A stretch of 64,000 nucleotides of DNA from a virus: positions 1 to 64,000 of IMG/VR virus record IMGVR_UViG_3300028536_000015; one strand, 5' to 3'. Below the pieces are notes generated by a model, which did no database searches, had not been told where the DNA came from, and was given only the letters and a program-made list of their open reading frames with translations. Position 1 is the first letter of the stretch. Every line of letters starts with the position of its first letter. The position numbers were made by a program, and so were the translations under genes. This document shows positions 19,071 to 43,399 of the stretch, piece by piece.

Positions 19071-19091
19071 TCAGCAACAAAGGAAAGAGAC

Positions 19092-19367: not shown

Positions 19368-19392
19368 TTAATCCCGCATCAAGAAGAAAGTA

Positions 19393-20037: not shown

Positions 20038-20888
20038 GGTTTGGTTCGATTGGAATGCGTCATGGGCGCAATCTCATGGATATCGGGCATCAGGTTGTTT
20101 TCCATGATCCTGGCGTTCTCGGCAGCATAGATCGTGATGTTCTAATCCGAGAGGCGGATGCGGTCATTATCTGCACGCCAACGATACGGCATGCTCTTGA
20201 TCTCTGCGATGTCTTGCAGGCAAGGAAGCATGTCCTGGTTGAGAAACCCATTGGTTATGACTGTCCTCCATATATCTCGGGCCTCATCATGGGCGCGCGG
20301 TCAGCAGCGAGAGATTTGGTAGTCGCTACTGGGTTCATGTGTCGGTTTCATCCTGAAGTTCAGAGAGCAAGGAGCATGATAGATTATGGCTACTTCAACA
20401 AAATCATCGATGTGCAATTCGATGTTTTACAAAAAAATAGCAAACCTGAATACTTGCGTGATGGTGTTATCCGAAATTGGGCTTCGCACGAACTCGACTT
20501 GGCTAGATATCTCTTGGGAAATCTCTGTCTAGAAAAAGCTGATGTTGGCGTTTCTCTCGATCACCAAGACATTTCTATGGTAGCTGATCTCTATAGCATA
20601 GAGCATGACTGTCCTGTGATTATACGAGCCGATTACATTACCAGTCCAGAGTTTAGAAGATTTTCTATTCAAGGCAATAAAGCTGTAGCCGTCGCGTTTA
20701 ATCTAGTGCGAGGAGAGGCCGTCTGGGACCAAACCTACGTGGATGAACTCAAGGCATTCATCAATGCGATCGATGGTAAGGACCCTGGACCGCTGGCAGA
20801 TGGTGCAGATGGTGTCGCGGCTCTTCAACTCGTCATGGACATAAGAGAGAAGGTTGGATTGGAAGATGAGCAAAAGAAGAACATTTAG
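20019..20888 (+). CDS. Gfo/Idh/MocA-family oxidoreductase
   Basis: This 289-residue NAD(P)-dependent sugar dehydrogenase starts at GTG, inside the previous gene. The N-terminal Rossmann fold shows 'IGILGFGSIGMRHGRNL' (GxGxxG), and 'VLVEKPIGYD' near residue 75 is the conserved EKP motif whose Lys takes part in hydride transfer. The C-terminal half is a short alpha/beta domain with 'WASHELDLARYLLG'. Enzymes of this family oxidise or reduce nucleotide-linked sugars, including steps in nonulosonic acid pathways. Confidence 0.85.
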   Translation: MLIGILGFGSIGMRHGRNLMDIGHQVVFHDPGVLGSIDRDVLIREADAVIICTPTIRHALDLCDVLQARKHVLVEKPIGYDCPPYISGLIMGARSAARDLVVATGFMCRFHPEVQRARSMIDYGYFNKIIDVQFDVLQKNSKPEYLRDGVIRNWASHELDLARYLLGNLCLEKADVGVSLDHQDISMVADLYSIEHDCPVIIRADYITSPEFRRFSIQGNKAVAVAFNLVRGEAVWDQTYVDELKAFINAIDGKDPGPLADGADGVAALQLVMDIREKVGLEDEQKKNI

Positions 20889-21072
20889 ATGCGAGTTATG
20901 TGAAATGAATTATCCGGTAGAACCGGGATGGACTGACGACATGGCAAAGGAGGAGTTTCGTCGTCTTTATCCAGGGCAGCCATTCAAGAATGTCGCCAAA
21001 ATCTGTGATGACTGCCATAAAATGGTCGAGATATGGCGCCAGGAGAATGAGGGAAAGAGGACGCTTCAATGA
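20866..21072 (+). CDS. Small zinc-ribbon protein
   Basis: This 68-residue protein starts at ATG 20866 inside the end of the oxidoreductase gene. It has two CxxC knuckles, 'FRCELCEMNYP' and 'KICDDCHKM', about 40 residues apart, as in zinc ribbons. Such proteins are frequent in phage accessory regions. Role unknown. Confidence 0.6.
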   Translation: MSKRRTFRCELCEMNYPVEPGWTDDMAKEEFRRLYPGQPFKNVAKICDDCHKMVEIWRQENEGKRTLQ

Positions 21073-21081
21073 GACTTCCTC

Positions 21082-21591
21082 ATGAAGCCAAAACACAAGA
21101 TATCTCAGACTACGCTCAAGCATCATCTAAAATATGATCCTGAAAGTGGAATATTCTACTGGAGACATTCCACCTATCGAACTGACCTAATTGGCAATCA
21201 AGCTGGGTACATTGATCGACGTGGGTATATCCGCATTAAGATTGGATCGATTACATATCTAGCTCATAGACTAGCCTACATCTACATGACCGGAACTAAT
21301 CCTCCAGAGCTTATCGACCATAAGGATAACAACCGACAGAATAATCGATGGATAAACATCCGTTCAGCTACACATGGGCAAAATGTCTCAAACTCCTCAG
21401 GATGGAAAAAGAGAAAAATAAAACTACCCAAAGGAGTGTACAAACATTCCATGTCAGCAGGATATTTTGCCATGATCGTAGTAGACAGAAAACGTCACTA
21501 TCTTGGCTCCTTCAAAACAATAGAAGAAGCGAAAGCTACCTACATTTCCGCCGCCATAAAATTCAAAGGCGAATTCGCGAGGGCTTCATGA
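21082..21591 (+). CDS. HNH homing endonuclease with AP2-like domain
   Basis: This 169-residue enzyme has an N-terminal helix-strand 'LKHHLKYDPESGIFYW', the HNH core 'PELIDHKDNNRQNNRWINIR' (about 73-92) with following 'GQNVSNSSG', and an AP2-like C-terminus 'YFAMIVVDRKRHYLGSF'. It is clearly related to the second half of the endonuclease at 7353-8159. The TGA overlaps the ATG of the cytidylyltransferase fusion, so it slipped into the sugar operon without breaking the downstream frame. Confidence 0.85.
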   Translation: MKPKHKISQTTLKHHLKYDPESGIFYWRHSTYRTDLIGNQAGYIDRRGYIRIKIGSITYLAHRLAYIYMTGTNPPELIDHKDNNRQNNRWINIRSATHGQNVSNSSGWKKRKIKLPKGVYKHSMSAGYFAMIVVDRKRHYLGSFKTIEEAKATYISAAIKFKGEFARAS

Positions 21592-23576
21592 CTAAAACCG
21601 TTGCCATATGCCAAGCTAGGATGTCCAGTACCCGCTTACCGGGAAAGGTTATGAAAGACCTTGCGGGAAGACCTGTAATAGATTGGGTGGTAGAGGCCGC
21701 CAAACACGCTCCCGGCGTTGACGAGGTCATAGTTGCCACCTCCATAGAACCTGCGGATGACGTGATTGCGGAGTGGGCTACACATAAGGGAGTAGCATTA
21801 TACCGAGGATCGTTAACTGATGTCATGAGCCGATTTGTAGGAGCGGCCAATCAAACCAACGCCGATATTATCGTTCGCTTGACCTGTGACTGTCCTCTGC
21901 TTGACCCGAATGTAATTGGAGAAGTGATCCAACTCAGGAAAATAAAAAATGCAGACTACGCCTCATGTACTGATCCTCCCTCGTATAGTGACGGTCTCGA
22001 TGTCGAGGTATTCACGCGGGGAACTCTGGAAAGCGCCAATCGGGAAGCAACGCGAGGAACTGACCGAGATACTGTTACTCGCTTTATGGTTCGCAATCGT
22101 CATAGGTTTCATGCTGTTAATTTGGTCTGCTCGCTTCCTAATCTCGCTCGTGAACGGTGGGTCCTCGATAGTCCAGAGGATTATGAATTCATCCTGGAGA
22201 TCGCAAAGAGGCTTGGCGGCGGCAGAAATCCACCGTCATACCTTCAGATTTTGTCGATCCTTGATAAGGAGCCATCACTCCGGGCGATAAACAACATGCA
22301 CTCTCGCAACGAGCGCTTCTATGAGGCGCTTGCTGCGGAAGGCTCTAGCAAACGATCATATCATAATTCCAAGATGATGCTAGCTAAGGCTGAGGCTTTG
22401 ATCCCCTTGGGAACGCAGACCTTCAGCAAGAGCAAGCTGATGTTCCCGGAAGGAGCAGCGCCACTGTTCGTAACCCATGGAGATGGGGCCTATGTCTTTG
22501 ACGTGGATGGCAATGATTATGTTGATTGCGTCGGAGGGCTTCTGCCTAATATCCTTGGCTACAGAGACCCCGATGTGGATAGCGCTATCCGCGATCAGCT
22601 ATCTAGCGGGATTAGCTTTAGCCTTGCGACCCCTTTAGAAGAGAAACTAGCGGCGCTGCTCCATAAGCATATTCCATCCGCTGAGATGGTGAAATTCGGC
22701 AAGAACGGCAGCGATGTCACGACTGCCGCTGTCCGTCTTGCGCGCCATGTCACCGGACGAGATATGGTCATGGTAGGTGGCTATCACGGCTGGCACGACT
22801 GGAGTATGGCGGTTAGTGAGCGCCATAATGGCATCCCCTGGGATGTCCAAAAGCTTTCCGATAGTCTGCACGCTGATAAAGAGCGGTTTAGCTCATACGC
22901 CGCCATGATCATTGAGCCTGAGTTCTATTCCAAGGAAGAGCTACAAGGCATCCAAAAACTATCCCTTGAATATGGGTTCCTCTTGATCTTTGACGAGATC
23001 ATCACTGGGTTCCGTTGCGGGTTGGGGGGTTTGCAGAAAGTCCATGGGGTGGCGCCTGATTTGTCTTGTTTTGGCAAATCCATGGCCAACGGCATGCCGA
23101 TATCTGCCTTGGTCGGACTTGAGAAATACATGAAACACATGCCTGAGATTGCTTATTCAGGCACGTTCTTTGGCGAAACACTATCGATCGCAGCGGCGAT
23201 TGCGACCATCGAAAAGTTGGAACGCGAGAGGGTCCCGGTTTGGTTACTGTCCCTTGGTATCTCTGTCTATGCCAATGTTACAACCCTGATCCAGAAGGCC
23301 AGATTGACTGAGTATATCTCATTGTATGGCCCTATGGAGCTAAATCGCATCAAGTTCAAGAACAATGGCGTCCAGAGCCTGTTCATTCAGGAGATGGCCA
23401 AGAACGGCGTGCTCATCATCGGTAGCCACAACCTCAGCTTTGCTCATGGTAAAACCGAGCTGGATATCATCACCAGAGCCTGGGAAAAGACACTGGACAA
23501 GCTTGCTGAAGCGGCGAGTTCCAATATCCTGGATCATCTCGATGGCGGTCTCGTCATGGCGAAAGGCGTCAGATGA
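21588..23576 (+). CDS. SpsF-like cytidylyltransferase fused to class III aminotransferase
   Basis: This 662-residue fusion starts at ATG 21588; longer readings overlap the HNH gene in another frame. Residues 1-240 form an SpsF/PseF-type nucleotidyltransferase: 'AICQARMSSTRLPGKVMKDLAGRP' (6-29) with the CTP-binding Arg/Lys, and later the 'RLTCDCPLLDP' metal-binding Asp. Residues 260-662 are a glutamate-1-semialdehyde aminotransferase-like, fold type I PLP enzyme. It shows 'LIFDEIITGFRCGLGGLQ' and the Schiff-base lysine in 'LSCFGKSMANGMP'. Fusing CMP-sugar activation with an amino-transfer step points to one sugar product handled in series. Confidence 0.85.
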   Translation: MTKTVAICQARMSSTRLPGKVMKDLAGRPVIDWVVEAAKHAPGVDEVIVATSIEPADDVIAEWATHKGVALYRGSLTDVMSRFVGAANQTNADIIVRLTCDCPLLDPNVIGEVIQLRKIKNADYASCTDPPSYSDGLDVEVFTRGTLESANREATRGTDRDTVTRFMVRNRHRFHAVNLVCSLPNLARERWVLDSPEDYEFILEIAKRLGGGRNPPSYLQILSILDKEPSLRAINNMHSRNERFYEALAAEGSSKRSYHNSKMMLAKAEALIPLGTQTFSKSKLMFPEGAAPLFVTHGDGAYVFDVDGNDYVDCVGGLLPNILGYRDPDVDSAIRDQLSSGISFSLATPLEEKLAALLHKHIPSAEMVKFGKNGSDVTTAAVRLARHVTGRDMVMVGGYHGWHDWSMAVSERHNGIPWDVQKLSDSLHADKERFSSYAAMIIEPEFYSKEELQGIQKLSLEYGFLLIFDEIITGFRCGLGGLQKVHGVAPDLSCFGKSMANGMPISALVGLEKYMKHMPEIAYSGTFFGETLSIAAAIATIEKLERERVPVWLLSLGISVYANVTTLIQKARLTEYISLYGPMELNRIKFKNNGVQSLFIQEMAKNGVLIIGSHNLSFAHGKTELDIITRAWEKTLDKLAEAASSNILDHLDGGLVMAKGVR

Positions 23577-23779
23577 GCACTGTTATCATGAAATTAACGG
23601 TGCCTTCTGATTGGGATGGCCAACAGTTGAAGCCAGCCGGCACTATTGGTTTAAGACAAATCTGTCTAAACCGAACTAACTGGATGGCCCATGATCAGCT
23701 AAGTTCGATCATCATACCTGATGGTGGCCAAATTATCATCAGACGCGATGGTCATACGATCTATATTGAGCGACCATGA
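23573..23779 (+). CDS. Hypothetical small cassette protein
   Basis: This 68-residue, probably beta-rich protein begins MSTVIMKLTVPSDWDG and ends 'IIIRRDGHTIYIERP'. It overlaps the fusion gene and pseB-like gene by four bases each (ATGA junctions), so it belongs to the operon. No family is recognised. Confidence 0.6.
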   Translation: MSTVIMKLTVPSDWDGQQLKPAGTIGLRQICLNRTNWMAHDQLSSIIIPDGGQIIIRRDGHTIYIERP

Positions 23780-24696
23780 AAGTCCTTATCACCGGAGGCT
23801 CAGGTAGCTGGGCGCAGGCTTGTGTTAAACGCCTCCTAGATGACAAGTTGGCTGACCGCATCGTTATATATTCTCGTGGTGAGCACCTTCAAGAGGAGAT
23901 GGCGCGACGCTTTAATCATGATGATCGCCTCAGGTTCGTCATAGGGGATGTTCGTGACCGTGATCGACTTGAGATGGCGATGTATGGGATTGACACAGTT
24001 CTCCATGCTGCGGCCCTTAAGATCGTTCCCACGGCTGAGTATAATCCTTACGAATGCGTGCAGACCAACATCGGAGGAGCTGAAAATGTTGCTAGAGCTA
24101 GTCTTGCTGCTGGCGTACAGCGCGTTATCGCTCTTTCTACTGATAAATCAGTCTCTCCTCTTAACCTCTATGGTGCGACAAAGCTTGCTGCTGAGAAGAT
24201 TTTCGTGGCAGCAAATAATATGTCTGCTGGTCGATGTAGCTATTCTGTCTGCCGCTATGGGAATGTCGTTAATAGTCGCGGGTCTGTGGTTCCGCTATTT
24301 AAACGACTTGCCAATGCTGGAGAACGTCTACCCATCACTGATCCACAGATGACCCGGTTCTGGATGACGCTGGATCAAGCTGTTGATCTCGTGCTGTCGT
24401 CTCTAGAGATGATGAAGGGTCGGGAAATCTTCATTCCAAAGATACCATCTGTGCGAATTGTTGATCTTGCCGCCGCTATTTCGCCAGAGTGTGGGACTAA
24501 GATTACCGGCATCAGACCGGGGGAGAAACTCCACGAAGTCTTGATGACACAAGAGGAAGCCAGAGGTGCTCTGGAGGCCTGGGATCGCTTTATCGTAAAT
24601 TCTGACGGCGTATCCAACATCAAAGAACCAAGGACCTATTCTAGTGATAGTAATGGCGATTATCTTAGTTTGGAAGAAATTAAGAGATATCTATAA
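23776..24696 (+). CDS. pseB: UDP-GlcNAc 4,6-dehydratase, PseB-like
   Basis: This 306-residue short-chain dehydrogenase begins 'KVLITGGSGSWAQACVKRLL', a nucleotide-binding motif with Ala in place of the last Gly. The decisive segment is 'IALSTDKSVSPLNLYGATKLAAEKIF' (about 118-143), which holds Thr-Asp-Lys and Tyr-x3-Lys as in PseB. It is followed by 'YGNVVNSRGSVVPLF' and a C-terminal 'GIRPGEKLHEVL'. PseB removes water from UDP-GlcNAc and inverts C5, the committed step to pseudaminic acid. PseC- and PseI-like genes follow. Confidence 0.88.
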   Translation: MKVLITGGSGSWAQACVKRLLDDKLADRIVIYSRGEHLQEEMARRFNHDDRLRFVIGDVRDRDRLEMAMYGIDTVLHAAALKIVPTAEYNPYECVQTNIGGAENVARASLAAGVQRVIALSTDKSVSPLNLYGATKLAAEKIFVAANNMSAGRCSYSVCRYGNVVNSRGSVVPLFKRLANAGERLPITDPQMTRFWMTLDQAVDLVLSSLEMMKGREIFIPKIPSVRIVDLAAAISPECGTKITGIRPGEKLHEVLMTQEEARGALEAWDRFIVNSDGVSNIKEPRTYSSDSNGDYLSLEEIKRYL

Positions 24697-24702
24697 GAGG
24701 GG

Positions 24703-25791
24703 ATGATGGTGAAACTATTCACGACCATAGGAAACGATGAAGAAGAAGCTGTCCTGAGGGTTCTACGCAGAAAGCAGCTCTCTGGATATATAGCCGGGAA
24801 GGATACCTCTGGTGTAGAAGTCAATCGACTAGAGACTAACTGGGCTGAGTTCTTCGGCGTCAATTACGCGATTGCGTGCAATTCAGCCACGTCTGGGTTG
24901 CTCGCGGCCTGCATGGCAATCGGCGTGGGTCCTGGCGATGAAGTTATCGTTCCCTTTTTGACCATGTCTGCCACAGCCTGCGCTCCGAATGTTCTTGGGG
25001 CGCAGATCGTGCTTGCGGACGTTGATGAGAACCTATGTATCGATGTCAACCATGTCGGTAAGCTCATCAATGAGAACACCAAGGCTGTCATCGCGACCAA
25101 CCTATTCGGCCATCCAGCGAAACTAGCACAGTTGCGCGGCATGTGCGACAGCGTCAACGTCTTCCTGATTGAAGACAATGCGCAGGCCATAGGCGCGAAA
25201 GAAGGAACCCGCTACACCGGGACCATAGGTCATATCGGCGTGTTCTCGCTGAACTACCATAAGCAAATCCAGGCTGGTGAAGGTGGCGTGTGCGTCACAG
25301 ATAATTATCTTTTGAACATGAAGCTGCGTGGCGCCATAAATCATGGCGAGCACATGAAGCTCGATTTCCCAGGGCTGAACCTGCGCATGACCGAGATCAC
25401 AGCCGCTATCGCCATAGAGCAACTTAAGAAATTACCAGATATTCTGGAAGCTAAAGAAGAAGTGGCACGCGCCATCATTGGTCATATGAAACGATGTAGT
25501 TACATCAATCCACCTCCGACCCGCGATAATTGCACGAACGTATATTACGCCCTGCCGTTTCAGGTTATTGAGGGCTTCAGCCTCATAAGCGTTATTGCTC
25601 ATTTTCAAAGTAAATCAGGTCTTAATCTCTCGCTGGGTTATAGCAATCTCATGAAACTTAGGATCGGTGATAAATGGGTAAAGGACAAATGCCATAAATA
25701 CCGAGATGTAAGTAGGTTAGTCCTTCTGGAGATGTACAGCGATGACATCACGATGGATAGCCTGAAGCATATGGAGAAGGTATTCACATGA
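24703..25791 (+). CDS. pseC: DegT/DnrJ/EryC1 aminotransferase, PseC-like
   Basis: This 362-residue PLP-dependent sugar aminotransferase has 'YAIACNSATSGLLAACMA' (about 52-69) and 'VIVPFLTMSATA' as the start of the cofactor site, then 'FLIEDNAQAIGA' with the ring-binding Asp. The Schiff-base lysine region is 'VFSLNYHKQIQAGEGG'. In PseC the enzyme adds an amino group to C4 of the PseB product, and its place directly after the PseB-like gene fits. A second ATG one codon downstream is an alternative start. Confidence 0.87.
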   Translation: MMVKLFTTIGNDEEEAVLRVLRRKQLSGYIAGKDTSGVEVNRLETNWAEFFGVNYAIACNSATSGLLAACMAIGVGPGDEVIVPFLTMSATACAPNVLGAQIVLADVDENLCIDVNHVGKLINENTKAVIATNLFGHPAKLAQLRGMCDSVNVFLIEDNAQAIGAKEGTRYTGTIGHIGVFSLNYHKQIQAGEGGVCVTDNYLLNMKLRGAINHGEHMKLDFPGLNLRMTEITAAIAIEQLKKLPDILEAKEEVARAIIGHMKRCSYINPPPTRDNCTNVYYALPFQVIEGFSLISVIAHFQSKSGLNLSLGYSNLMKLRIGDKWVKDKCHKYRDVSRLVLLEMYSDDITMDSLKHMEKVFT

Positions 25792-26003
25792 CCGACGAGG
25801 AACTGTTAGATCAGATCACCAGAGTTCGCGCGCAGAATAACGTCAATTGGGTGGAACTCTTAAGGATCGCATTACGCGCTGATCCCAAGGCCACCAAGGA
25901 GGTTCTTGGCAAGGTTCTTATCATGGACCTCCAAGTGAGTAGGCTCACCAGAGCCCTGTCCGCGACAGACTGGAAGCCCAGGGACCTGGAGGACAAGAAA
26001 TGA
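25788..26003 (+). CDS. Small helical cassette protein
   Basis: This 71-residue protein is likely all-helical: 'NNVNWVELLRIALRADPKATKEVLGKVLIMD' spans about residues 17-47 and is followed by a basic end. It overlaps both neighbours by four bases, so it is translationally coupled between the PseC- and PseI-like enzymes. Similar small helical proteins occur near NeuB-family genes. Role unknown. Confidence 0.6.
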   Translation: MTDEELLDQITRVRAQNNVNWVELLRIALRADPKATKEVLGKVLIMDLQVSRLTRALSATDWKPRDLEDKK

Positions 26004-27043
26004 AAATAGGCTCACGGGAGATCGGACCGGATCATCCTCCTTATATCGTGGCCGAATTATCTGCTTCGCATCTAGGAGACATCAATAACGTATTCAGGCT
26101 GATCGATGAGGCGAGACATGCTGGCGCTGATGCCGTCAAGCTACAGGCCTACACACCAGATACGATTACGATGGATAGCAAGAATGCTGACTTTCTCATC
26201 AAGGAAGGTCCCTGGAAAGGACGATATCTCTTTGACCTTTACGCAGAAGCTCACGTGCCTTTTTCGTGGATGGAACGTATATTTGATTATGCTCGCAACG
26301 TTCGTTGCATCGAGATATTTGCATCTGTTTTCGACGAGAGCGCGGTTGGTCTCATGGAAGAACTTTATGCCCGTGCTTACAAGATTGCGAGCTTCGAGTT
26401 ATCTCATCTCCCTCTCATCAGGAACGTAGCGGAGACCAATAAGCCGATTATCTTGTCTACTGGGATGGGTTCCACCAAGGAAATCCTGGACGCCATGAAC
26501 GTCATCAACAAGTTCTCTCTCAAGCCTGATATCGCCCTGCTTCATTGTGTCAGCGCCTATCCGACACCTGCCAGTCAGGCCAACTTGCCGGCGCTAGGGC
26601 CTTTGAGCGAACTCCTGGGAGGGAAACATGTGGTTGGTCTGTCTGACCATACTCTTGGTATTGCTGTGGCTGTATCTGCTGTTTGCTACGGTGCGACCAT
26701 CATTGAAAAGCATCTATGTCTTAGTAGGAGCGCAGGTGGCCCTGACGCTGATTTTAGTCTGGAACCTGATGAGTTCACAGCCCTGGTAAAATCATGCCGC
26801 GAGGCATGGGAGGCTACTCGGCCGTCGAAGTCTCCGGATCAGAAGGCAAATCTTCAATGGCGTCGGTCGATTTATGTAACGAATCCAATTTCCGAAGGCG
26901 AGCCTCTGTCCAAGGAGAATATCCGAGTGATACGGCCAGCGAACGGGCTTTTGCCGTCATTTTACCCGTCCGTTTTGGGGCGAAAGGCAAAGGTGGCCCT
27001 GCAACCTGGGACTCCATTATCTCTCGATCACTTACTCTCATAA
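26000..27043 (+). CDS. pseI: Pseudaminic acid synthase, PseI/NeuB family
   Basis: This 347-residue enzyme condenses phosphoenolpyruvate with a 6-carbon amino sugar to give a 9-carbon nonulosonic acid. The TIM barrel shows 'YIVAELSASHLGDINN' (about 14-29), 'GADAVKLQAYTPDTITMDS', 'FLIKEGPWKGRYLFDLYAEA' and 'AYKIASFELSHLPLI', the last two matching PseI better than sialic acid synthases. The C-terminal SAF antifreeze-like domain begins 'RRSIYVTNPISEGEPLS' and ends 'GTPLSLDHLLS'. The last 230 bases are overlapped on the other strand by an HTH gene. Confidence 0.9.
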   Translation: MKIGSREIGPDHPPYIVAELSASHLGDINNVFRLIDEARHAGADAVKLQAYTPDTITMDSKNADFLIKEGPWKGRYLFDLYAEAHVPFSWMERIFDYARNVRCIEIFASVFDESAVGLMEELYARAYKIASFELSHLPLIRNVAETNKPIILSTGMGSTKEILDAMNVINKFSLKPDIALLHCVSAYPTPASQANLPALGPLSELLGGKHVVGLSDHTLGIAVAVSAVCYGATIIEKHLCLSRSAGGPDADFSLEPDEFTALVKSCREAWEATRPSKSPDQKANLQWRRSIYVTNPISEGEPLSKENIRVIRPANGLLPSFYPSVLGRKAKVALQPGTPLSLDHLLS

Positions 27044-36473: not shown

Positions 36474-36600
36474 CTAATGTTACCTAGTGGGGCTAGCTCG
36501 GAACTACATTCCAGGCTGGCCTTACTGCGAAGCATTACGCTTCAGACATGAGAAAGCAAGAAAATGCATTCTCATGCTTTTTCTTGAGAGGGAAAACTAT
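36474..36600 (+). promoter_or_regulatory. Tripartite hairpin element 1, with extra hairpin
   Basis: First copy of the recurring element. AATGT pairs loosely across a GCTAGC-GGAA/TTCC-GGCTGGC stem with GCGAAGCATT, and the same GAAGC can instead pair with GCTTC (36531-36543). A second structure, CATGAGAA/TTCTCATG, with alternative AGAAAGCA/TGCTTTTTCT pairing, precedes the GAGAGGGAAA ribosome site. Confidence 0.6.
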
Positions 36601-36603
36601 ACC

Positions 36604-36783
36604 ATGGTCGCAGATCAACGCAAAGGTGCGCGTGCTCGTGCTCGGAACCGTATCAACACCATGTTGGACAATATGGTTGCCGCCAGCGAAACACCGCAAA
36701 CCGCCACGTTCTCTAACGCCGCATGTTCCTCCGATATGGAGCATATGCGTTGGGCCGATGATGGCGGGCGACATCACGACTAA
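36604..36783 (+). CDS. 59-residue basic protein
   Basis: This gene starts at ATG 36604 after GAGAGGGAAAACTATACC and ends at the TAA that begins the next hairpin element. The product begins MVADQRKGARARARNRINT, a basic helix, and ends DMEHMRWADDGGRHHD. Unknown function; the basic arm suggests nucleic acid binding. Confidence 0.6.
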   Translation: MVADQRKGARARARNRINTMLDNMVAASETPQTATFSNAACSSDMEHMRWADDGGRHHD

Positions 36784-36838
36784 TGTTTCGGCATGGGCAG
36801 GGAATTATACCTGCCCATTGCGAAGCATTATCGCTTCA
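36781..36838 (+). promoter_or_regulatory. Tripartite hairpin element 2
   Basis: AATGTTTCG (arm A) can pair over nine positions with CGAAGCATT (arm B), enclosing a perfect ATGGGCAGG/CCTGCCCAT stem. Arm B can instead pair its GAAGC with GCTTC (arm C) next to the AGAGGGAAA ribosome site. The element begins at the stop codon of the previous gene. Confidence 0.7.
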
Positions 36839-36854
36839 CAAGAGGGAAATTACC

Positions 36855-37043
36855 ATGACTGACAAAGGGATGCACACCGCAAGCGCCGGACATGGCCAGG
36901 ATTGGGGGATTGATAATCTCTCAACTGCCCATGATCACGGGCGCGTTGTTCCGCCCATCGCCTATCAGACGCCGGATGTGACTGTCTATGATATCGGTCA
37001 CGAAAACGACGACCTGATCACGTCAGGTGATACCAATGTCTGA
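36855..37043 (+). CDS. 62-residue hypothetical protein
   Basis: This gene starts at ATG 36855 after AGAGGGAAATTACC. The product has 'GMHTASAGHGQDWGIDNLST' (residues 5-24) and an acidic Asp-rich end. It is probably small and soluble. Its stop lies inside the next mini-gene. Unknown. Confidence 0.55.
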   Translation: MTDKGMHTASAGHGQDWGIDNLSTAHDHGRVVPPIAYQTPDVTVYDIGHENDDLITSGDTNV

Positions 37044-37107
37044 TGAAGGTACTGCGCTTCTGGCGCTGATGATCCTCATCGCCTTTACATTCGTTGTCTT
37101 GCTCTAA
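37036..37107 (+). CDS. 23-residue membrane mini-protein
   Basis: The reading from ATG 37036 overlaps the previous TGA by eight bases and ends at the TAA that opens hairpin element 3. The product is MSDEGTALLALMILIAFTFV followed by VLL, a short polar start and one transmembrane helix. A ribosome site (AGGTGA) lies upstream. Position and composition support translation, but it needs experimental proof. Confidence 0.5.
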   Translation: MSDEGTALLALMILIAFTFVVLL

Positions 37108-37157
37108 TGTTTCGGCATGCAGCATTCGTGCTGCATAGCGAAGCATTACGCTTCAAG
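37105..37157 (+). promoter_or_regulatory. Tripartite hairpin element 3
   Basis: Same layout as element 2: AATGTTTCG, inner stem ATGCAGC/GCTGCAT, CGAAGCATT, then GCTTC and AAGAGGGAAA. The inner stem sequence differs from element 2 but stays perfectly paired. Confidence 0.7.
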
Positions 37158-37168
37158 AGGGAAAGACT

Positions 37169-37732
37169 ATGCCAACAATCGAGTTTAGCAATGCATTCGA
37201 CGCGACAAACAAGCGCGTTCTGTCCGAAGTGTTCGCTATCGTCATCAAGAAACTTGATCTCACTGAAGATTTCAAGGTCAAGGTCTCGATGGAGTTTATG
37301 GATAACAGAAGCCTTTATGCGCGGGTTGCGCGGGGAGGCGAAAAGCTGTTCCTGATGGAAATGAACAGCAACGGCTTCAACCTATTCGACGCAACTGCCG
37401 CGTTTGGACACGAGCTGATCCACGTGCAGCAGCACATCAAGGGTTGGTTGCGCGTCAAGAATACAGGCAAGGTTTGGTCCGATGGGCTCTATTGGAAGGG
37501 CGAATTCTATTCCGCTCTTCATCTGATGCTCAACGGCTCCAGCAACTGCGTTCCTTGGGAAATCGACGCTTGGAAACGCATGGGTGAGCTGCACAAATAC
37601 GTGGTCTCTCATTTGCCGCCGGCTGATGCCGCGCTGATCGATATCACCAAATCGACCGGCCTTAAAGATACTTGGAATGCAGACTATGCATCTTGGAAAG
37701 AGTGCGAAGAGATTTTTTCTCTTAAACACTAA
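37169..37732 (+). CDS. Zincin-like metallopeptidase
   Basis: This 187-residue protein has a HEXXH zinc-protease motif in 'FGHELIHVQQHIKGW' (about 81-95) flanked by an N-terminal alpha/beta part and a helical C-terminus. The 'GHELIHVQQ' form is close to SprT/DUF4157-like zincins. It might cleave a host or phage protein. The operon also encodes a MoxR-type ATPase and a second, degenerate zincin/VWA protein. Confidence 0.7.
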   Translation: MPTIEFSNAFDATNKRVLSEVFAIVIKKLDLTEDFKVKVSMEFMDNRSLYARVARGGEKLFLMEMNSNGFNLFDATAAFGHELIHVQQHIKGWLRVKNTGKVWSDGLYWKGEFYSALHLMLNGSSNCVPWEIDAWKRMGELHKYVVSHLPPADAALIDITKSTGLKDTWNADYASWKECEEIFSLKH

Positions 37733-37823
37733 ATCGCTTCTGTCCTGCCGCGTACCTAATAAGCCTTGAGGAAGGCTTCTCAGGCTTTCTCAAGTACGCG
37801 GCAGTGAGAAGCGATTAAGCTTC
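37732..37823 (+). promoter_or_regulatory. Tripartite hairpin element 4, longest copy
   Basis: Arm A AATCGCTTC (37732-37740) pairs perfectly with arm B GAAGCGATT (37808-37816). The inner stem CTGCCGCGTAC/GTACGCGGCAG (37745-37755 with 37794-37804) is perfect over 11 pairs and carries an apical GCCTTGAG/CTCAGGC hairpin. GAAGC of arm B can instead pair with GCTTC (37819-37823). The sequence of arms A and B differs from element 2 yet pairing is kept. Confidence 0.75.
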
Positions 37824-37842
37824 ATGAAGAGGGAAACTTCAA

Positions 37843-38064
37843 ATGACCAAAGCAACAAGCAAGTCTTGGGATGAGGTTCATGCCGAGCGCGTGGCCTATC
37901 GGCGCGCTCACAATAACCAGCCCAATGGCTACCGGCCTGTTACGGAAGCGGAATTGCAGACGCAACGGAAAGAACTGTTTAGCGAATTGGAACCGGATAT
38001 CAATCCGGAAACCAAAATCGTGAGCATTCTCGATCCGAATTTCGGCAAGGTCAAAGCGGCTTAG
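37843..38064 (+). CDS. 73-residue hypothetical protein
   Basis: This gene starts at ATG 37843 after GAGGGAAACTTCAA. It is a charged, likely helical protein with 'EVHAERVAYRRAHNNQPNGY' (residues 11-30) and an ending of LDPNFGKVKAA. Unknown. Confidence 0.6.
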   Translation: MTKATSKSWDEVHAERVAYRRAHNNQPNGYRPVTEAELQTQRKELFSELEPDINPETKIVSILDPNFGKVKAA

Positions 38065-38113
38065 CTTTTCGACACTGCGGAGTTTAATCTCCGCAGCACG
38101 AAGCGCTGATGCT
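38062..38113 (+). promoter_or_regulatory. Tripartite hairpin element 5
   Basis: AGCTTTTCG faces CGAAGCGCT (one mismatch, one G:U) around a perfect CTGCGGAG/CTCCGCAG stem; GAAGC can alternatively pair with GCTTC. AGAGGGAAAG follows. Confidence 0.65.
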
Positions 38114-38138
38114 TCAAAAGAGGGAAAGAAATTCTACC

Positions 38139-38294
38139 ATGCAAATCTTCAGTGACAGTGACGACTTGCCGATGAAGGCTGAAAAACGTGCCGAGACTTC
38201 ATTGCTCAAATCCTTGTTTTACGAGGATGTTGCAATGAGCGCCGGCTGGGTCTTCATCATCCTGTGCGTTCTCGTGATTGCGGAGTGGGGCTGA
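38139..38294 (+). CDS. 51-residue membrane protein
   Basis: This gene starts at ATG 38139. The product has a charged N-terminal half and one C-terminal transmembrane helix (AGWVFIILCVLVIAEWG), so it is likely tail-anchored. Its TGA overlaps the next ATG. Confidence 0.6.
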   Translation: MQIFSDSDDLPMKAEKRAETSLLKSLFYEDVAMSAGWVFIILCVLVIAEWG

Positions 38295-38488
38295 TGAAAA
38301 AGATCAAAATCCCTCACCCTGTGCTCCAATGCCCAAAGGTCAGGAAGCGCCGCGTAGAAGCGGGTATTCTGATCGTTGTGTGCGTGGCGCTGGGCGCGCA
38401 TTACATCATTCCGGACTACGAAGCTGTGATGAATTTCGCAGCCAGTTTTCTGTTCTGGCTTGAACCGAAAATTGCGGTTGAAGTCTAA
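38294..38488 (+). CDS. 64-residue membrane protein
   Basis: This gene starts at ATG 38294, overlapping the previous stop (TGATG). A basic N-terminus 'KIKIPHPVLQCPKVRKRRVEAG' by position (3-24) leads into a transmembrane helix 'ILIVVCVALGAHYII', and a second hydrophobic stretch ends the protein. It probably forms a pair with the preceding tail-anchored protein. Confidence 0.6.
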   Translation: MKKIKIPHPVLQCPKVRKRRVEAGILIVVCVALGAHYIIPDYEAVMNFAASFLFWLEPKIAVEV

Positions 38489-38590
38489 GCGTTTCGGCAT
38501 GGGCTGGTTTATCCAGCCCATAGCGAAGCTCTTGAAGCTTTACATGAAAATGGTTGAGAAACCATCCTCATGGTTTATCAATGGAGAGGG
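38486..38590 (+). promoter_or_regulatory. Tripartite hairpin element 6, with extra hairpin
   Basis: Perfect inner stem ATGGGCTGG/CCAGCCCAT, arms AAGCGTTTCG and CGAAGCTCTT (one mismatch) and a following AAGC/GCTT alternative. As in element 1, an added structure follows: ATGGTT, AACCAT, ATGGTT, in which the middle block can pair with either side. GGAGAGGGAAA comes next. Confidence 0.65.
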
Positions 38591-38598
38591 AAATACAA

Positions 38599-38754
38599 AT
38601 GGCTAAATGTGTTAAGAGCAAGCGTAACGGCAACATCATCAGGGTTTCTGATGAGGAAGCCGCGCGGCTTGTGAAAGAAAGCGATTTCGCATATGCGCCC
38701 AAGAGCGAGTATCGGGCATATATCGCCAAGACTGCCGAGGTGACCCATGCCTGA
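38599..38754 (+). CDS. 51-residue hypothetical protein
   Basis: This gene starts at ATG 38599. The product 'MAKCVKSKRNGNIIRVSDEE' (1-20) with 'AARLVKESDFAYAPKSEY' resembles small phage proteins in which a basic hairpin leads to a helix 'DEEAARLV'. It overlaps the next gene by eight bases. Confidence 0.6.
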   Translation: MAKCVKSKRNGNIIRVSDEEAARLVKESDFAYAPKSEYRAYIAKTAEVTHA

Positions 38755-38914
38755 TATCAATGATATGATGGCCTGGGAAAACGGCGAAATGAATGAAGAC
38801 CGCGAGGACAAGCTGTTCCAACAGCTTGTTGATAGCGGCTTGGCTTGGACGCTCCAGGGTATGTATGGGCGTCGGGCATCGCAGCTATTGAGAGAACGGA
38901 GAATTCACCGTTAA
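38747..38914 (+). CDS. 55-residue conserved phage protein
   Basis: This gene starts at ATG 38747 inside the previous gene. It carries 'DKLFQQLVDSGLAWTLQGMYGRRASQLL' by position (23-50), a motif seen in many small phage proteins (LFQ-x-L-(I/V)-D-(S/T)-G-x-AW-x-LQG-x-YGR-x-A). Function unknown, but the conservation makes the gene credible. Confidence 0.68.
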   Translation: MPDINDMMAWENGEMNEDREDKLFQQLVDSGLAWTLQGMYGRRASQLLRERRIHR

Positions 38915-38961
38915 TGTTCATGTCCTGCCGCGTAAGCGCGGTAGTGATGAGCATTTGCTCA
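38912..38961 (+). promoter_or_regulatory. Tripartite hairpin element 7, covarying
   Basis: Arms changed to AATGTTCAT and ATGAGCATT, still pairing over nine positions, and the alternative stem changed to TGAGC/GCTCA. The inner stem is CCGCG/CGCGG. These compensatory changes relative to elements 2-5 support both competing helices. Confidence 0.75.
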
Positions 38962-38976
38962 AAGAGGGAGAGACCT

Positions 38977-39390
38977 ATGTCTAAACACAATGTGAGAATG
39001 TTGAAAATGGATATCCATGAGACGCCCAAAGCGTTCAATATCAATGGTATCACATTTTCCAAAAAACGCCTTACTGAACTGTTCCCCGGCTGTGGATGCG
39101 ACATCAAGACGTTCTATCGGCTAATGATTATCATGCCGTTCTTTGCGTCTCAAAAGAGCGTGGAAGAAGCCCCAACGGTTACAGGCAAATACGCCATCGC
39201 CAAGGCCAAACGGATTTTCGAAAACATCGGCCTGGATGACGCGTCTATTCTGCCGTTCATGCAGATTGCGGCGCAACTCGGCGAGCTTCAAATCCCGGAA
39301 TGCCTGGATGATATCACAGAACAGTGCCACGATCAGATTTGCGGCTGTGGCGCGAAGGTTTCACCGGGTACCAAAAATACCCTTCATTAA
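38977..39390 (+). CDS. 137-residue hypothetical protein
   Basis: The start at 38977 (MSKHNVRMLKMDIHE) follows GAGGGAGAGACCT. The protein has a Cys-rich patch 'FPGCGCDIKTFYR', a helical centre 'AIAKAKRIFENIGLDDASILPF' by position and another Cys cluster 'CHDQICGCGAKV' near the end, possibly binding metal. It is directly followed by the DUF3150-like gene. Confidence 0.6.
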   Translation: MSKHNVRMLKMDIHETPKAFNINGITFSKKRLTELFPGCGCDIKTFYRLMIIMPFFASQKSVEEAPTVTGKYAIAKAKRIFENIGLDDASILPFMQIAAQLGELQIPECLDDITEQCHDQICGCGAKVSPGTKNTLH

Positions 39391-39401
39391 CGGAGGGTAT
39401 G

Positions 39402-40331
39402 ATGGACTTAGCTAAGAGCGCGATGCTAGTAAGCGTCAATATCGTGAATGGCGGATTGCTGGGAGAACGTAAAAACGCAAAAGCAACGGCCCTGATCCAC
39501 AAGACCTATTCTATTGCTGATAAGCGTGCCAAAGCCAGCACGTTCTTGATTGACCGTAAGCATCCTAAAGTCAAAGCGGTTGTCGCAGCCTCACAACGCG
39601 TGCGCGAAGTCCTATATAAGTATACGCTATCATGGGGCGACGACAAAACGAGGCTTCTTTCGATTTCCGTGCATGAGCTTTTCAGCAAGAAAATATCCGA
39701 AGCAGAGGCTGAATTGCGGGAGGCGTGGGATGAGTATCTCCATGTTTATCCGTCGTTGGTTGCCGATAGCGAGCGCAAGGAAAGCGGCTTAGGCGGCCTG
39801 TTTGATGCGTCTCAATATCCAAGCGTCAAGAAGGCCAGAGAGCTTTTTGCTTTTAAGCTCACCTATTGGCCGGTTCCTAGCTCGGGTAACTTTGTTGCGG
39901 ACATCGCCACGGAAGCAGCGGCAAAAGCCAAAGCTGATATGGCGCTGGAGATCGAGACCCGGCTCAAGACAAGCGCGCAAGAACTTGTCAATCGAGGGCG
40001 TGAAGCCGTTGCTACCTTGATGGAGCGGCTTCAGTCTTTCAATAAAAAGGCTGACGGCAAGATTATTAAGGATAGCTTGATCAAAAACCTGGAAGAGGTT
40101 GCCCATCTGATCGAAGACATGAATATCACGGGAAATTCTGAGATTTATACCATGGCTCATAGGATCAGGCGGCTTTCTAAGGTCAGCGCCGTAGGGTATC
40201 GAATGAGCCCTCAGTTTAGGGCTAATGGACTTTCTCTCGGGGAAGCCATCCTTAAAGAACAGATCGACTTGGATACGCTCGATTTGGAAGTATCTGAAAT
40301 GGTTGCAGAAGCAGGTGAATACGAGTTTTGA
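39402..40331 (+). CDS. DUF3150-like helical protein
   Basis: The start at 39402 has GGAGGG at the right distance; the adjacent ATG at 39399 is too close. This 309-residue protein is all-helical with 'DKRAKASTFLIDRKHPKVKAV' by position, 'WGDDKTRLLSISVHELFSKKI', a mid-region AFKLTYWPVPSSGNF and a long Ala/Lys/Glu helix. Proteins of this type (DUF3150) lie next to MoxR-ATPase and VWA genes in phages, as here, so it is probably the third part of that machine. Confidence 0.6.
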   Translation: MDLAKSAMLVSVNIVNGGLLGERKNAKATALIHKTYSIADKRAKASTFLIDRKHPKVKAVVAASQRVREVLYKYTLSWGDDKTRLLSISVHELFSKKISEAEAELREAWDEYLHVYPSLVADSERKESGLGGLFDASQYPSVKKARELFAFKLTYWPVPSSGNFVADIATEAAAKAKADMALEIETRLKTSAQELVNRGREAVATLMERLQSFNKKADGKIIKDSLIKNLEEVAHLIEDMNITGNSEIYTMAHRIRRLSKVSAVGYRMSPQFRANGLSLGEAILKEQIDLDTLDLEVSEMVAEAGEYEF

Positions 40332-40387
40332 GTGCCTTAAAACTACCACATTATTATGGTTTACAGAAAGCTTGAACGAGAGGGAAT

Positions 40388-40483
40388 ATGGAAATCTTCT
40401 TTATGCTCTACGCCTTAGGACAGGCGATGTTACTTGTTTTGTCCACAAGACGACTAGCGAAAAACCCCCATCAGAAGGAATAG
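40388..40483 (+). CDS. 31-residue membrane mini-protein
   Basis: The reading ATG 40388 to TAG 40483 is preceded by GAGAGGGAAT at ribosome-site distance. The product is MEIFFMLYALGQAMLLVLST followed by a basic tail RRLAKNPHQKE, i.e. one transmembrane helix with a positive C-terminus. It ends three bases before the next ATG. Confidence 0.5.
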   Translation: MEIFFMLYALGQAMLLVLSTRRLAKNPHQKE

Positions 40484-40485
40484 CA

Positions 40486-40665
40486 ATGCCAGCACCGTTA
40501 CCGGATGATATCACGATTGATATCAAACTTTCTGTAGCCCGCGTCGCATGTGAGTTAGCCAAAAACTATATCATAATGATGCAGGGTGATCCACGCGATA
40601 ATCCGCACGGCGATAAGGTTTTAGCGGCCGTTTTGGATCAATTGGACGAAGCGTTGAAAGAATAA
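40486..40665 (+). CDS. 59-residue hypothetical protein
   Basis: This gene starts at ATG 40486 with AAGGAA just upstream. The product 'MPAPLPDDITIDIKLSVARV' (1-20) continues with 'ACELAKNYIIMMQGD' and an acidic helix. It is probably a small alpha/beta protein. Unknown. Confidence 0.6.
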   Translation: MPAPLPDDITIDIKLSVARVACELAKNYIIMMQGDPRDNPHGDKVLAAVLDQLDEALKE

Positions 40666-40715
40666 GCTTTCATGTCCACTGGCTTACGAGCCAGTGAGAT
40701 GAGCGCTTATGCTCA
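40664..40715 (+). promoter_or_regulatory. Tripartite hairpin element 8
   Basis: AAGCTTTCAT faces ATGAGCGCTT (one mismatch, one G:U) around a perfect CACTGGCT/AGCCAGTG stem; TGAGC can pair with GCTCA. The inner loop CTtacgAG is shared with elements 9 and 10. AGAGGGAGA follows. Confidence 0.72.
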
Positions 40716-40731
40716 AAGAGGGAGACCTTAA

Positions 40732-41769
40732 ATGCTGAAATGCAAAATTACACAGCTTGCTGACGTTGTGTATCCTTTGATCCACGCGAATATTCCCGTG
40801 ATGATCAAAGGACCTACCGGGGTCGGCAAGTCTGCGGTGATCAATACGGAGATCATGTCCCGTATCCGCACGGATTTCGGACAGGCTTCGAGGCTGCATG
40901 ATATCAGGCTTTCCACAAAAGATATTGTGGATGGCACTGGCATGCCGCTGATCGATCGCGAGAAGATGGCCACCTATTGGACGCGGCCCGCGTTTGTTCC
41001 GGAAGATGACGGCGAAATGCATGTCATGTTCCTTGACGAGTTCGGCCATGCGAATGTTCAACTCCAGCAGATGTCTTATCAGTTGGTGTTGGATCGTTCG
41101 TGCGGCGGATATCCATTGCCCAAAAAGAACCGCATTATCCTTGGCTCGAACACCAGGGAAGACGGCGGCGGCGACAACAAGATGTTGAAGCCGCTGGAAA
41201 ATCGTATGGCACATATCCAGGTGGAAGTCGATGAGATGGGCTTCATTGAGTTGATCAAGAAGTGGGGATGGGACAAGCGTCTGATTGCTTTCCTCAACCT
41301 GCGCCCTGAGTTGATCCATAAGGTGGACCCGAACCATCCGTCCTTTCCGACGCCGCGCTCTCTTGAGAACTTCAACAAAGTCCTTCAGGACCCGGCGCTG
41401 GCTCATTTGGACCCCAAGCCGCTCAAGTCTGTCCTGGAAAGCGCCGCGAGGTCTATCTTGGGCGAGGGGTTTGCGCATCAGTTCAGCACGTTCCTGGATC
41501 GTATCACCGCTGGTCTGCCCAAGATCGCAGATATCCTGGCGGACCCGACCAAGGCCAAGATGCCCGCTGATGCCCATTTCCAGTGGCTGATTGCCGGCAC
41601 CATCTCGCGCAACATGAACGCCAAGAATGCCCCGGCGTTCGCCAAGTACTTGGCTCGCATGTCGCCTGACATTGCGTCCATGTGTGTTCATGATGCAATC
41701 TCGCGGGATCGTGCTTTGGGCGATGTTGTTTCGCTCAAGGCGCTGTTGTTGGAAGGATCGGGGAAGTAA
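40732..41769 (+). CDS. MoxR/CbbQ-type AAA+ ATPase
   Basis: This 345-residue AAA+ protein has Walker A 'VMIKGPTGVGKSAVI' (about 23-37), Walker B 'HVMFLDEFGHANVQ' (about 97-110), sensor-1 region 'NRIILGSNTRED' and 'KPLENRMAHI' with the arginine. This is the MoxR/dynein-like class that works with VWA proteins as a chaperone or remodelling machine. The partner VWA gene follows at 42115. In phages such pairs have no established role. Confidence 0.85.
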   Translation: MLKCKITQLADVVYPLIHANIPVMIKGPTGVGKSAVINTEIMSRIRTDFGQASRLHDIRLSTKDIVDGTGMPLIDREKMATYWTRPAFVPEDDGEMHVMFLDEFGHANVQLQQMSYQLVLDRSCGGYPLPKKNRIILGSNTREDGGGDNKMLKPLENRMAHIQVEVDEMGFIELIKKWGWDKRLIAFLNLRPELIHKVDPNHPSFPTPRSLENFNKVLQDPALAHLDPKPLKSVLESAARSILGEGFAHQFSTFLDRITAGLPKIADILADPTKAKMPADAHFQWLIAGTISRNMNAKNAPAFAKYLARMSPDIASMCVHDAISRDRALGDVVSLKALLLEGSGK

Positions 41770-41770
41770 G

Positions 41771-42007
41771 ATGCAGGATTTATTTTATCTTCTTGCATCG
41801 ATCTTTCTAATCTTGATGATGGCGTGGATGTTTAGCCGCTCAGGATTTGACGATAGCGACAAGAGCCGTAGCGAGCGTTCTGGTTTGATGATCTTCACGG
41901 ATCACAAGACTGGTTGCCAATACGTTGGAACTATCCTTGGAGGTATTACTCCGCGCCTTACCTCGCAAGGTACTATTCTCTGTGTTTCCGAAGAGAAAAA
42001 AGATTGA
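41771..42007 (+). CDS. Membrane-anchored DUF6440-like protein
   Basis: The 78-residue product starts at 41771 with one N-terminal transmembrane helix (FYLLASIFLILMMAWMF), followed by a Ser/Arg-rich linker and 'LMIFTDHKTGCQYVGTILGGITPRL' by position (40-64). The D-x-x-TG-x-x-Y-x ... GG-x-TP order resembles DUF6440 proteins. Function unknown. Confidence 0.6.
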   Translation: MQDLFYLLASIFLILMMAWMFSRSGFDDSDKSRSERSGLMIFTDHKTGCQYVGTILGGITPRLTSQGTILCVSEEKKD

Positions 42008-42090
42008 CGTTTCCACTCATGGGCTTACGAGCCCATGCAGGAAGCGCCTAATGCTTTACATAAGAAAGCTTGAGTAAGCATTCTTATGGT
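42006..42090 (+). promoter_or_regulatory. Tripartite hairpin element 9, with extra hairpin
   Basis: GTTTCC pairs with GGAAGC around a perfect CATGGGCT/AGCCCATG stem; AAGC can pair with GCTT. The arms covary again relative to TTTCG/CGAAG. A second hairpin CATAAGAA-GCTT/AAGC-TTCTTATG follows, then AGAGGGAGA. Confidence 0.7.
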
Positions 42091-42114
42091 TCATCAAGAA
42101 AGAGGGAGATATTA

Positions 42115-43344
42115 ATGTTTGGAATGAAACCGAATGCAATGCGGCGGATGCTTCTGGCGCGGGAGCGGATCGCGAGAAAGAACCCGTTCTTTGCATCCAT
42201 CTTGTTCGGCGCCAATATCATCGAGAGCAAAAAGCATCAGACGATTTGGAGCGATGGATTGAACATCCTTTTCAATAAAGACTATGTTGAAGAGGGGAAC
42301 AATGACAAATACATTGAGGGAGATGTCCTTCACTCCGTTCTACACTGTGCCTTGCTGCATCATCCTCGCAAGCGCTATCGCGATCCCAAGAGATGGAATG
42401 AAGCCTGCGACTATCCTGTCAACGCCGTGGTCAAGGACTACTTTCCTTTGTCCCCGGATGCCTTGACCAGCCAGAAGTATGGCGCCTTGGCACCGGAAGC
42501 TGTCTATGAACTGCTTCAGAGACAAGAAGAAAAGCAGCAAGGCAAAGGCAAGCCTCAGAAGTCCAAGGGTAAGCCTGAGAAGGGCGACAAAGGAGACGAC
42601 AGTGGGCAGGGCGAGAACGATGAGAATGATCAGGACGATGGTGAGGGGCAGGAAAAAGAACAGCCCGGCACCATGTTTGAGCCTGACCCTGAGGATCAGG
42701 AACAGGATAGCGAGGAAAACGAGCGTCAGTGGAAAAGAGTTCTCACCGGCGCGATCGAGAAATCGCCTCCTGGGACCATGCCGGGAAGTCTCCAGCGCCT
42801 GATCCTGGATATCTTTCCAAAAGACAAGATCGATTGGAAGGACCTGATCCGGGATATGTCACGGGATGCCAAATCGAAGGCTACCAGAACGTGGCATCGG
42901 CCTAATCGGCGCCGCCTTGGCAATGATGAGTATATGCCGGGCTATGGCAACGATAACGTCTACAAGCTTGTCATGTGCCTGGATGTCTCGGGTTCGGTCA
43001 GTCAGCAAATGATCCAGGAAATGTGCGATGAGGCCGCAAGCCTTCTCGATCAGGACCTGGTCACGAATGTTACGCTGATCTCCGTCGATACGCGCATTCA
43101 GAATGTCTTGGAGGCAACAACCGGCGAGGATATCAAGGGTTGGAACGCAGGGGGCGGGGGAGGAACAGACTTCCGCAGCGCCATGGATACTATCGGCAAG
43201 ATGGAGGATGTCATTGGCTGTATCTTTCTGACAGACATGGCCACGAGTTCCTTTGGTACCGAGCCCCCGTTTGGGGTAGTATGGGTCGATTGGAGCGGTG
43301 GTGGCAGCAAGGCGCCTTATGGGCGCACTGTTTCTTACCGCTGA
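42115..43344 (+). CDS. VWA protein with degenerate metallopeptidase domain
   Basis: This 409-residue protein starts at 42115 (MFGMKPNAMRR). Residues 1-140 form a DUF2201-type metallopeptidase-like domain, but the zinc motif reads His-Ser-Val-Leu-His, lacking the catalytic Glu of HExxH. A Lys/Glu/Gly-rich low-complexity linker (about 143-195) separates it from the VWA domain, with the MIDAS motif 'CLDVSGSVSQQ' (about 287) and 'GGGGGTDFRSAM'. It is the presumed partner of the MoxR ATPase at 40732. Confidence 0.82.
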   Translation: MFGMKPNAMRRMLLARERIARKNPFFASILFGANIIESKKHQTIWSDGLNILFNKDYVEEGNNDKYIEGDVLHSVLHCALLHHPRKRYRDPKRWNEACDYPVNAVVKDYFPLSPDALTSQKYGALAPEAVYELLQRQEEKQQGKGKPQKSKGKPEKGDKGDDSGQGENDENDQDDGEGQEKEQPGTMFEPDPEDQEQDSEENERQWKRVLTGAIEKSPPGTMPGSLQRLILDIFPKDKIDWKDLIRDMSRDAKSKATRTWHRPNRRRLGNDEYMPGYGNDNVYKLVMCLDVSGSVSQQMIQEMCDEAASLLDQDLVTNVTLISVDTRIQNVLEATTGEDIKGWNAGGGGGTDFRSAMDTIGKMEDVIGCIFLTDMATSSFGTEPPFGVVWVDWSGGGSKAPYGRTVSYR

Positions 43345-43386
43345 TGCTTAAACACAGAGGCTTACAAGCCTCTGCATTAAGCACCA
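43342..43386 (+). promoter_or_regulatory. Tripartite hairpin element 10, lacking the third arm
   Basis: TGCTTAA pairs with TTAAGCA around a perfect CAGAGGCT/AGCCTCTG stem with the shared CTtacaAG loop. No downstream GCTT is present, so only the enclosing helix can form. GGAGGGAAAC follows. Confidence 0.65.
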
Positions 43387-43399
43387 TTAGGAGGGAAAC

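Follow-up and report, generated by a model that had tools for sequence, protein, structure and literature searches.

A three-arm RNA element with alternative pairings, repeated between the genes of phage operons

An RNA element in which a common middle strand, B, pairs either with an upstream arm, A, or with a downstream arm, C, is supported by sequence evidence in a viral operon, and recurs across soil-bacterial phages with little else in common. The A:B state is a long hairpin in which a 3x2 internal loop separates the outer helix from a variable inner one, while the B:C state is a small hairpin immediately upstream of the ribosome site. The element is described here from a 64-kb stretch of DNA (hereafter the window), which represents most of a 73,364-base IMG/VR virus contig, and specifically from a + strand operon at 36.6–44.0 kb that encodes small unknown proteins, an AAA ATPase and a DUF2201/VWA protein. 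It is rated as a new RNA family, the parts of which work like known kinds. The reading we tentatively prefer is that of an intercistronic processing element, which would be cut and then refold.

Architecture and the ten window copies

The typical element opens at the upstream gene's stop codon, followed by A, a 3-nt loop strand, the inner stem, an apical loop, the returning inner stem, a 2-nt loop strand and B, after which there are usually 3–6 nt, C, an AGAGGGA-type ribosome site and an ATG. The A:B helix begins at the stop codon itself, the letters of which usually lie within the helix (TAATGTTTCG/CGAAGCATTA; TGACGTTTCG/CGAAGCGCCA). An initial annotation, made from the sequence alone, had recognized ten copies, and all ten were found at the starts it gave. 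The A:B pairing it described also stands, with a length of 7–10 bp (e.g. TAATGTTTCG/CGAAGCATTA) rather than the 5 bp reported, and its perfectly paired inner stem holds at the base of the stem but not along the whole length in E1 and E4. Absent from that description was an internal loop that separates A:B from the inner stem and is conserved as 3x2, or sometimes 2x2. In a helix-loop-helix scan, 3x2 loops stand out with 133 matches vs 31–74 for most other sizes; the 132 counted for 4x3 loops mostly duplicate this set, shifted inward by one pair. Several loop types occur side by side in one phage. Between genes, the outer duplex measures 7–10 bp and the inner 7–12 bp, for a shortest total of ~15 bp. 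The proposal that U:G pairs point to the + strand was likewise borne out, as column 6/B5 is U.G in 89 of the 101 elements collected from all loci. A coding role for the NTG/ACG that follows the stop codon was set aside, since inner stems vary in length and no frame is kept.

All ten window copies, numbered E1 to E10, are on the + strand, and their folds have minimum free energy z-scores of −3.4 to −7.6 relative to mononucleotide shuffles. A covariance model, R1, was composed of 22 gapless copies, of which three (E7, E9 and E10) are from the window; its seeds were picked by pairing, and its own covariation is therefore inflated. The covariance-model search that had been proposed for these elements, run over 411 kb, recovered eight of the ten with R1 on the + strand at E ≤ 2.3e-4. 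E6 was detected weakly (E 0.44, filters off) and E1 was not found by R1.

The first element, E1 (36474–36603), lies in the operon leader and is supported by its fold, with a divergent A:B pair (TAATGTT/AAGCATTA) and a B:C pair of GAAGC/GCTTC. E2 (36781–36854; R1 E 1.7e-4, and fold) and E3 (37105–37168; E 2e-8) both have TAATGTTTCG as A, CGAAGCATTA as B and GCTTC as C, with loops GC/TG and GC/AG, respectively. The stop codon of E3 is supplied by a very short ORF directly upstream (37037–37109); by eye, this ORF has 23 codons, and one end is hydrophobic. E4 (37732–37842; E 4e-8) combines AATCGCTTCT, AGAAGCGATT and GCTTC with a GTC/TG loop and a long apical part, and E5 (38062–38138; E 2.3e-4) combines TTTTCG, CGAAGC and GCTTC with an ACA/CA loop. 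The arms of E6 (38486–38598; fold and the weak R1 match) are GTTTCG, CGAAGC and GCTTT around a GC/AG loop, and those of E7 (38912–38976; E 5e-13) are AATGTTCAT, ATGAGCATT and GCTCA around GTC/TG. E8 (40664–40731; E 3e-6) precedes the AAA ATPase gene (40732–41769, + strand, PHROG 1297) with arms TTCAT, ATGAGC and GCTCA and a GTC/AG loop, and E9 (42006–42114; E 5e-13) precedes the DUF2201 metallopeptidase-like/VWA gene (42115–43344, + strand, PHROG 1314) with arms CGTTTCC, GGAAGCG and TGCTTT and an ACT/CA loop; both are also supported by orthologous sites. The last element, E10 (43342–43399; E 4e-13), has TGCTTAA as A, TTAAGCA as B and an ACA/CA loop. It is the one copy without a C arm, and in the other nine the complement of B precedes the ribosome site, in agreement with the nine of ten first reported.

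Variations on this layout were observed. A third hairpin sits between C and the ribosome site in E1 (36549–36600), E6 (38545–38590) and E9 (42059–42100), with similar ends (CATGAGAA..TTCTCATG, CATGA..TCATG and CATAAGAA..TTCTTATG), and extra hairpins occupy the same place in other phages. The final element of the operon is without a convincing C in four phages, namely E10 of the window and those at 10817 of locus L002, 10947 of L004 and 4216 of L012. After the 309-aa gene of the window, the gap at 40332–40388 is without an element, whereas a full element follows the homologue of this gene in L004 (7432–7476), which suggests that single elements have been gained or lost.

Covariation, orthologous sites and distribution

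In place of R-scape, shuffle and column-slide controls were used, which take phylogeny into account only partly. In an alignment of 88 R1 matches, 83 of them distinct, pairing holds in 94.3% of cells vs 69.5% in shuffles, and the covariation score of these matches is 0.633 vs 0.194, a signal that is lost on sliding by one to three columns. Neither these counts nor those of the tests below are probabilities, because the shuffles preserve column make-up and not relatedness, and copies within one phage are probably kin. Covariation is seen in both A:B and the inner stem, the latter remaining helical while its sequence is free.

Three further tests addressed features unused in element selection. 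Column 2/B9, which lies beyond the modelled helix, is A-U in 51, G-C in 49 and A-C in one of the 101 elements. The outermost loop mismatch is A.A (54), G.G (32), C.A (11) or A.C (4), with no other type in 101 of 101, and carries 0.91 bits of mutual information vs 0.165 for the largest of 2000 shuffles. The C arm also follows B: elements with GAAGC contain their own complement in 73 of 76 cases and the complement of TGAGC in seven, of the 15 elements with TGAGC, 11 have their own complement and two the other's, and the three AGAGC elements all contain their own and never the other's. The AGC of B is itself nearly invariant. Absence of C was not associated with absence of the U.G wobble (Fisher p 0.19).

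That A, B and C change together was confirmed at orthologous genes. Sites upstream of the AAA gene were located by protein homology, independently of structure and down to 28–30% protein identity. The A/B/C triple TTCAT/ATGAGC/GCTCA of the window is replaced by TTCAC/GTGAGC/GCTCA in L012, by TTTCG/CGAAGC/GCTTC in L015, L018 and L017, and by TTTCG/CGAAAC/GTTTT in L005; a clear triple was not obtained by this approach before the AAA gene of L002 or L003. At the E5 site, L002 has TTTCC/GGAGC/GCTCC vs TTTTCG/CGAAGC/GCTTC in the window.

Related elements were reached through the AAA protein, which identified three related contigs at 62–81% identity. A 22-base pattern derived from the elements of these contigs matched 28 stretches of IMG/VR contigs, with ~0.2 chance matches expected in the viral collection by our estimate, as well as three Bradyrhizobium genome contigs. 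R1 matched all 26 viral records searched, most of which had first been found by the 22-base pattern, and in each the matches are confined to one region and one strand, besides weaker antisense matches on the same palindromic copies. With duplicates and antisense matches removed, 101 distinct elements remain, and each contig has them in a single operon and on a single strand. R1 was positive in five of 149 Bradyrhizobium genomes, including three of 7–10 Mb with one to three copies each clustered at one locus, and in one of 398 genomes of the order to which Bradyrhizobium belongs. From this clustering, and from one locus being itself an IMG/VR record, we infer that the Bradyrhizobium loci are prophages. 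None of the 15 cultured phage records searched with R1 in two rounds matched, with positive controls (two records) in the second round only. DNA of the 36.4–44.0 kb region had no match in the phage collection, and hence no close DNA relatives of the operon there. Among the parts of contigs compared, no gene family is common to all carriers and no trans-acting partner of phage origin emerges.

Alternative pairing and candidate mechanisms

In the intact RNA, the predicted median probability of A:B is 0.96 and that of B:C is 0.02; the predicted probability of B:C climbs to 0.96 when A is cut away at the 3′ loop or nucleotides 1–13 are masked. The mutually exclusive helices that the initial annotation had placed before successive genes are thus strongly supported by covariation, by the orthologous triples and by predicted pairing. 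B:C starts at B2 in 78 of 97 elements, which would leave approximately two unpaired bases following a cut in the loop. For 81 of 91 fragments that begin in the 3′ loop, the first helix starts no more than 3 nt from the 5′ end, vs 35% with shuffled downstream sequence, and such a 5′-terminal hairpin is predicted for nine of the ten window elements, with E10 as the exception.

In the cut-and-refold reading, the polycistronic message would fold as A:B and be cut once by an endonuclease, most simply the host RNase III, on the 3′ side of the internal loop in an irregular helix of ~15–20 bp. This would leave the upstream message with the inner hairpin at its end. In the downstream one, C would displace A from B to generate a 5′-terminal hairpin with about two unpaired bases, adjoining the ribosome site, and each gene or small gene group would yield a message protected at both ends. 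Cleavage, enzyme and RNA ends are all things we infer. Such a cut is favoured because the inner stem is perfect while free in sequence, the internal loop is preserved, a 5′-terminal hairpin is predicted and precedents exist in T7 R1.1 with alphaproteobacterial RNase III and in the processed cip-cel operon of a bacterium. In 76 of 93 elements, B5 faces U on the A side and C on the C-arm side, as expected if C must displace A. The 5′-terminal hairpin restates B:C, however, and would also fit a ribosome model, given the equal effect of masking nucleotides 1–13. The tight spacing to the stop codon is not a requirement of cut-and-refold and counts against it, and we know of no RNase III requirement that matches the loop mismatch rule (A.A, G.G, C.A, A.C). 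A further point against is that the RNase III of Sinorhizobium meliloti prefers longer duplexes (PMC6121014), some elements having only ~15 bp.

Cut-and-refold is preferred over its main rival, a ribosome-driven switch, which we regard as rather unlikely. Here, a terminating ribosome would cover A, free B for C and alter access to the downstream ribosome site, such that translation of one gene would license the next. Stop letters occupy element offsets 0 to −2 in 79 of 101 elements, 63 of 90 detected stops being at 0 or −1, and the inner stem begins ~13 nt past the first stop base, the distance at which the edge of a terminating ribosome is expected; the masking result described above corresponds to this arrangement. 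In 52% of elements, vs 23% of shuffled controls, the ribosome site also becomes more than twice as accessible once B:C forms. However, a clear off state was not seen: when B is left out, accessibility of the ribosome site does not fall below that of shuffled controls (median 0.033 vs 0.017), and masking of the site by C was rejected as a general off state. Furthermore, an upstream ribosome is not always available, since B:C is kept in 22 elements without a stop at that position, some distant from any stop, and in E1, which lies in the leader with no known upstream gene. Phage genome compaction could also account for the position of the stop, the letters of which belong to the helix as well. 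The 0/−1 peak fits coupling and compaction alike, and was discarded as a discriminator between models.

Less probable still is an RNA-binding protein, from host or phage, that would recognize the internal loop and regulate the translation or stability of each gene, with B:C as the unbound or released form. The loop is kept at 3x2 under a strict mismatch rule, variable in sequence but alike in shape, and the near-invariant AGC of B would suit such a protein; yet the carriers have no common gene family in the parts of contigs compared, several loop types coexist in one phage, and the slow change of B2–B6 may merely reflect its two pairing partners. Antitermination of the kind exerted by put, or another effect on RNA polymerase, had also been suggested and appears highly improbable. 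The put RNA of phage HK022 is a structured RNA of a phage operon that acts on RNA polymerase from leader positions, and the present element resembles it as structured RNA within a phage operon and in the leader position of E1. No positive evidence for this role emerged: instead of a single leader copy, there are up to ten serial copies per operon, placed ahead of almost all genes and individually equipped with a C arm and ribosome site, and no + strand terminator-like site (a GC-rich stem followed by a T run) coincides with any element. A promoter scan yielded 13 promoter-like sites against an expected 8.0, and these showed no relation to element positions. Finally, recently spread palindromic repeats or DNA sites without RNA function could explain the many near-identical outer arms and the presence of repeats in intergenic gaps. 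We give this reading almost no credence, as the elements have a single orientation at every locus, U.G pairs are biased to the sense strand, A, B and C covary, and whole Bradyrhizobium genomes contain one to three copies at one locus each.

Known systems and surrounding genes

The T7 genome contains several RNase III sites. Among these, R1.1 is an intergenic 60-nt RNA with an asymmetric 4/5 internal loop that is cut by RNase III, including that of the alphaproteobacterium S. meliloti (PMC6121014). Like R1.1, the present element is an irregular intergenic hairpin of phages whose internal loop is asymmetric; both recur along an operon, and the element is an irregular helix of ~20 bp (~15 bp in the shortest copies). 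They differ in that the T7 loop is 4/5, the description of R1.1 includes no third arm complementary to the 3′ strand, and cleavage of the element is presumed. R1 had no match in T7, in a round without a positive control.

Among named repeats of phages, the nearest are the SAS/ESAS of cluster K mycobacteriophages. Like similar motifs in cluster EF Microbacterium phages, they are intergenic, precede the start codons of many genes in one phage, and contain inverted repeats and part of a ribosome site. Hairpin formation is little supported for SAS/ESAS (PMC3203893), and ESAS contains SigA-like hexamers of putative promoters (PMC11373665). Unlike SAS/ESAS, the element conserves structure rather than sequence, and the 13-bp SAS consensus (GGGATAGGAGCCC) has no match in the window with up to two mismatches. 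Attenuators and other alternative-helix leaders share the use of one strand in two exclusive helices near a stop codon and ribosome site, an arrangement found here by covariation and predicted pairing. Such RNAs are usually present as one leader per operon, whereas the element is serial between genes, and neither of its states is a terminator or a clear mask of the ribosome site. In the bacterial cip-cel operon, intergenic stem-loops mark cuts and stabilize both new ends (PMC10311766); those structures are different, and the abstract of that study mentions no shared strand.

The view that no named element has this layout was upheld, in that no Rfam family matches the element itself. With Rfam release 15 at the gathering score, the window had no match, and 11 related loci had only tRNA and Atu_At1, the latter matching an RNA inside one element and not the element. 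The open-access literature searched contained no description of this layout. The Atu_At1 matches (RF02496, a Rhizobiales sRNA) come from two related phages, where the RNA is enclosed by the inner stem of an element, with A, B and C arms around it (L002 4648–4755, 83 bits; L004 ~3368–3478, 52 bits, below the cut-off). Because an Atu_At1-like RNA sits inside two elements, the stem may be able to carry structured RNA passengers. The element could be a widespread, undescribed phage RNA cassette that, by three-strand exchange from A:B to B:C, partitions an operon into separately capped messages or licenses these in turn. With up to ten copies per operon and matched triple changes, it offers a natural series for testing per-gene expression within one transcript and, if cut-and-refold is true, a compact natural part for obtaining protected single-gene messages from an operon.

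With respect to the surrounding genes, the AAA ATPase (gene region 40732–43344) has ~30% identity to proteins of Schitoviridae (N4-like) phages, and a metallopeptidase gene also comes after the AAA ATPase gene in Erwinia phage Pastis; a search of four Schitoviridae records did not recover the RNA element. Elsewhere in the window, a + strand sugar-biosynthesis cluster at 17707–27043 resembles a pseudaminic acid pathway carried by the phage, together with methyltransferases. It includes a PseI pseudaminic acid synthase above the NCBIfam cut-off (26000–27043), a PseB close below its cut-off (23776–24696) and a PseC-like aminotransferase (24703–25791).
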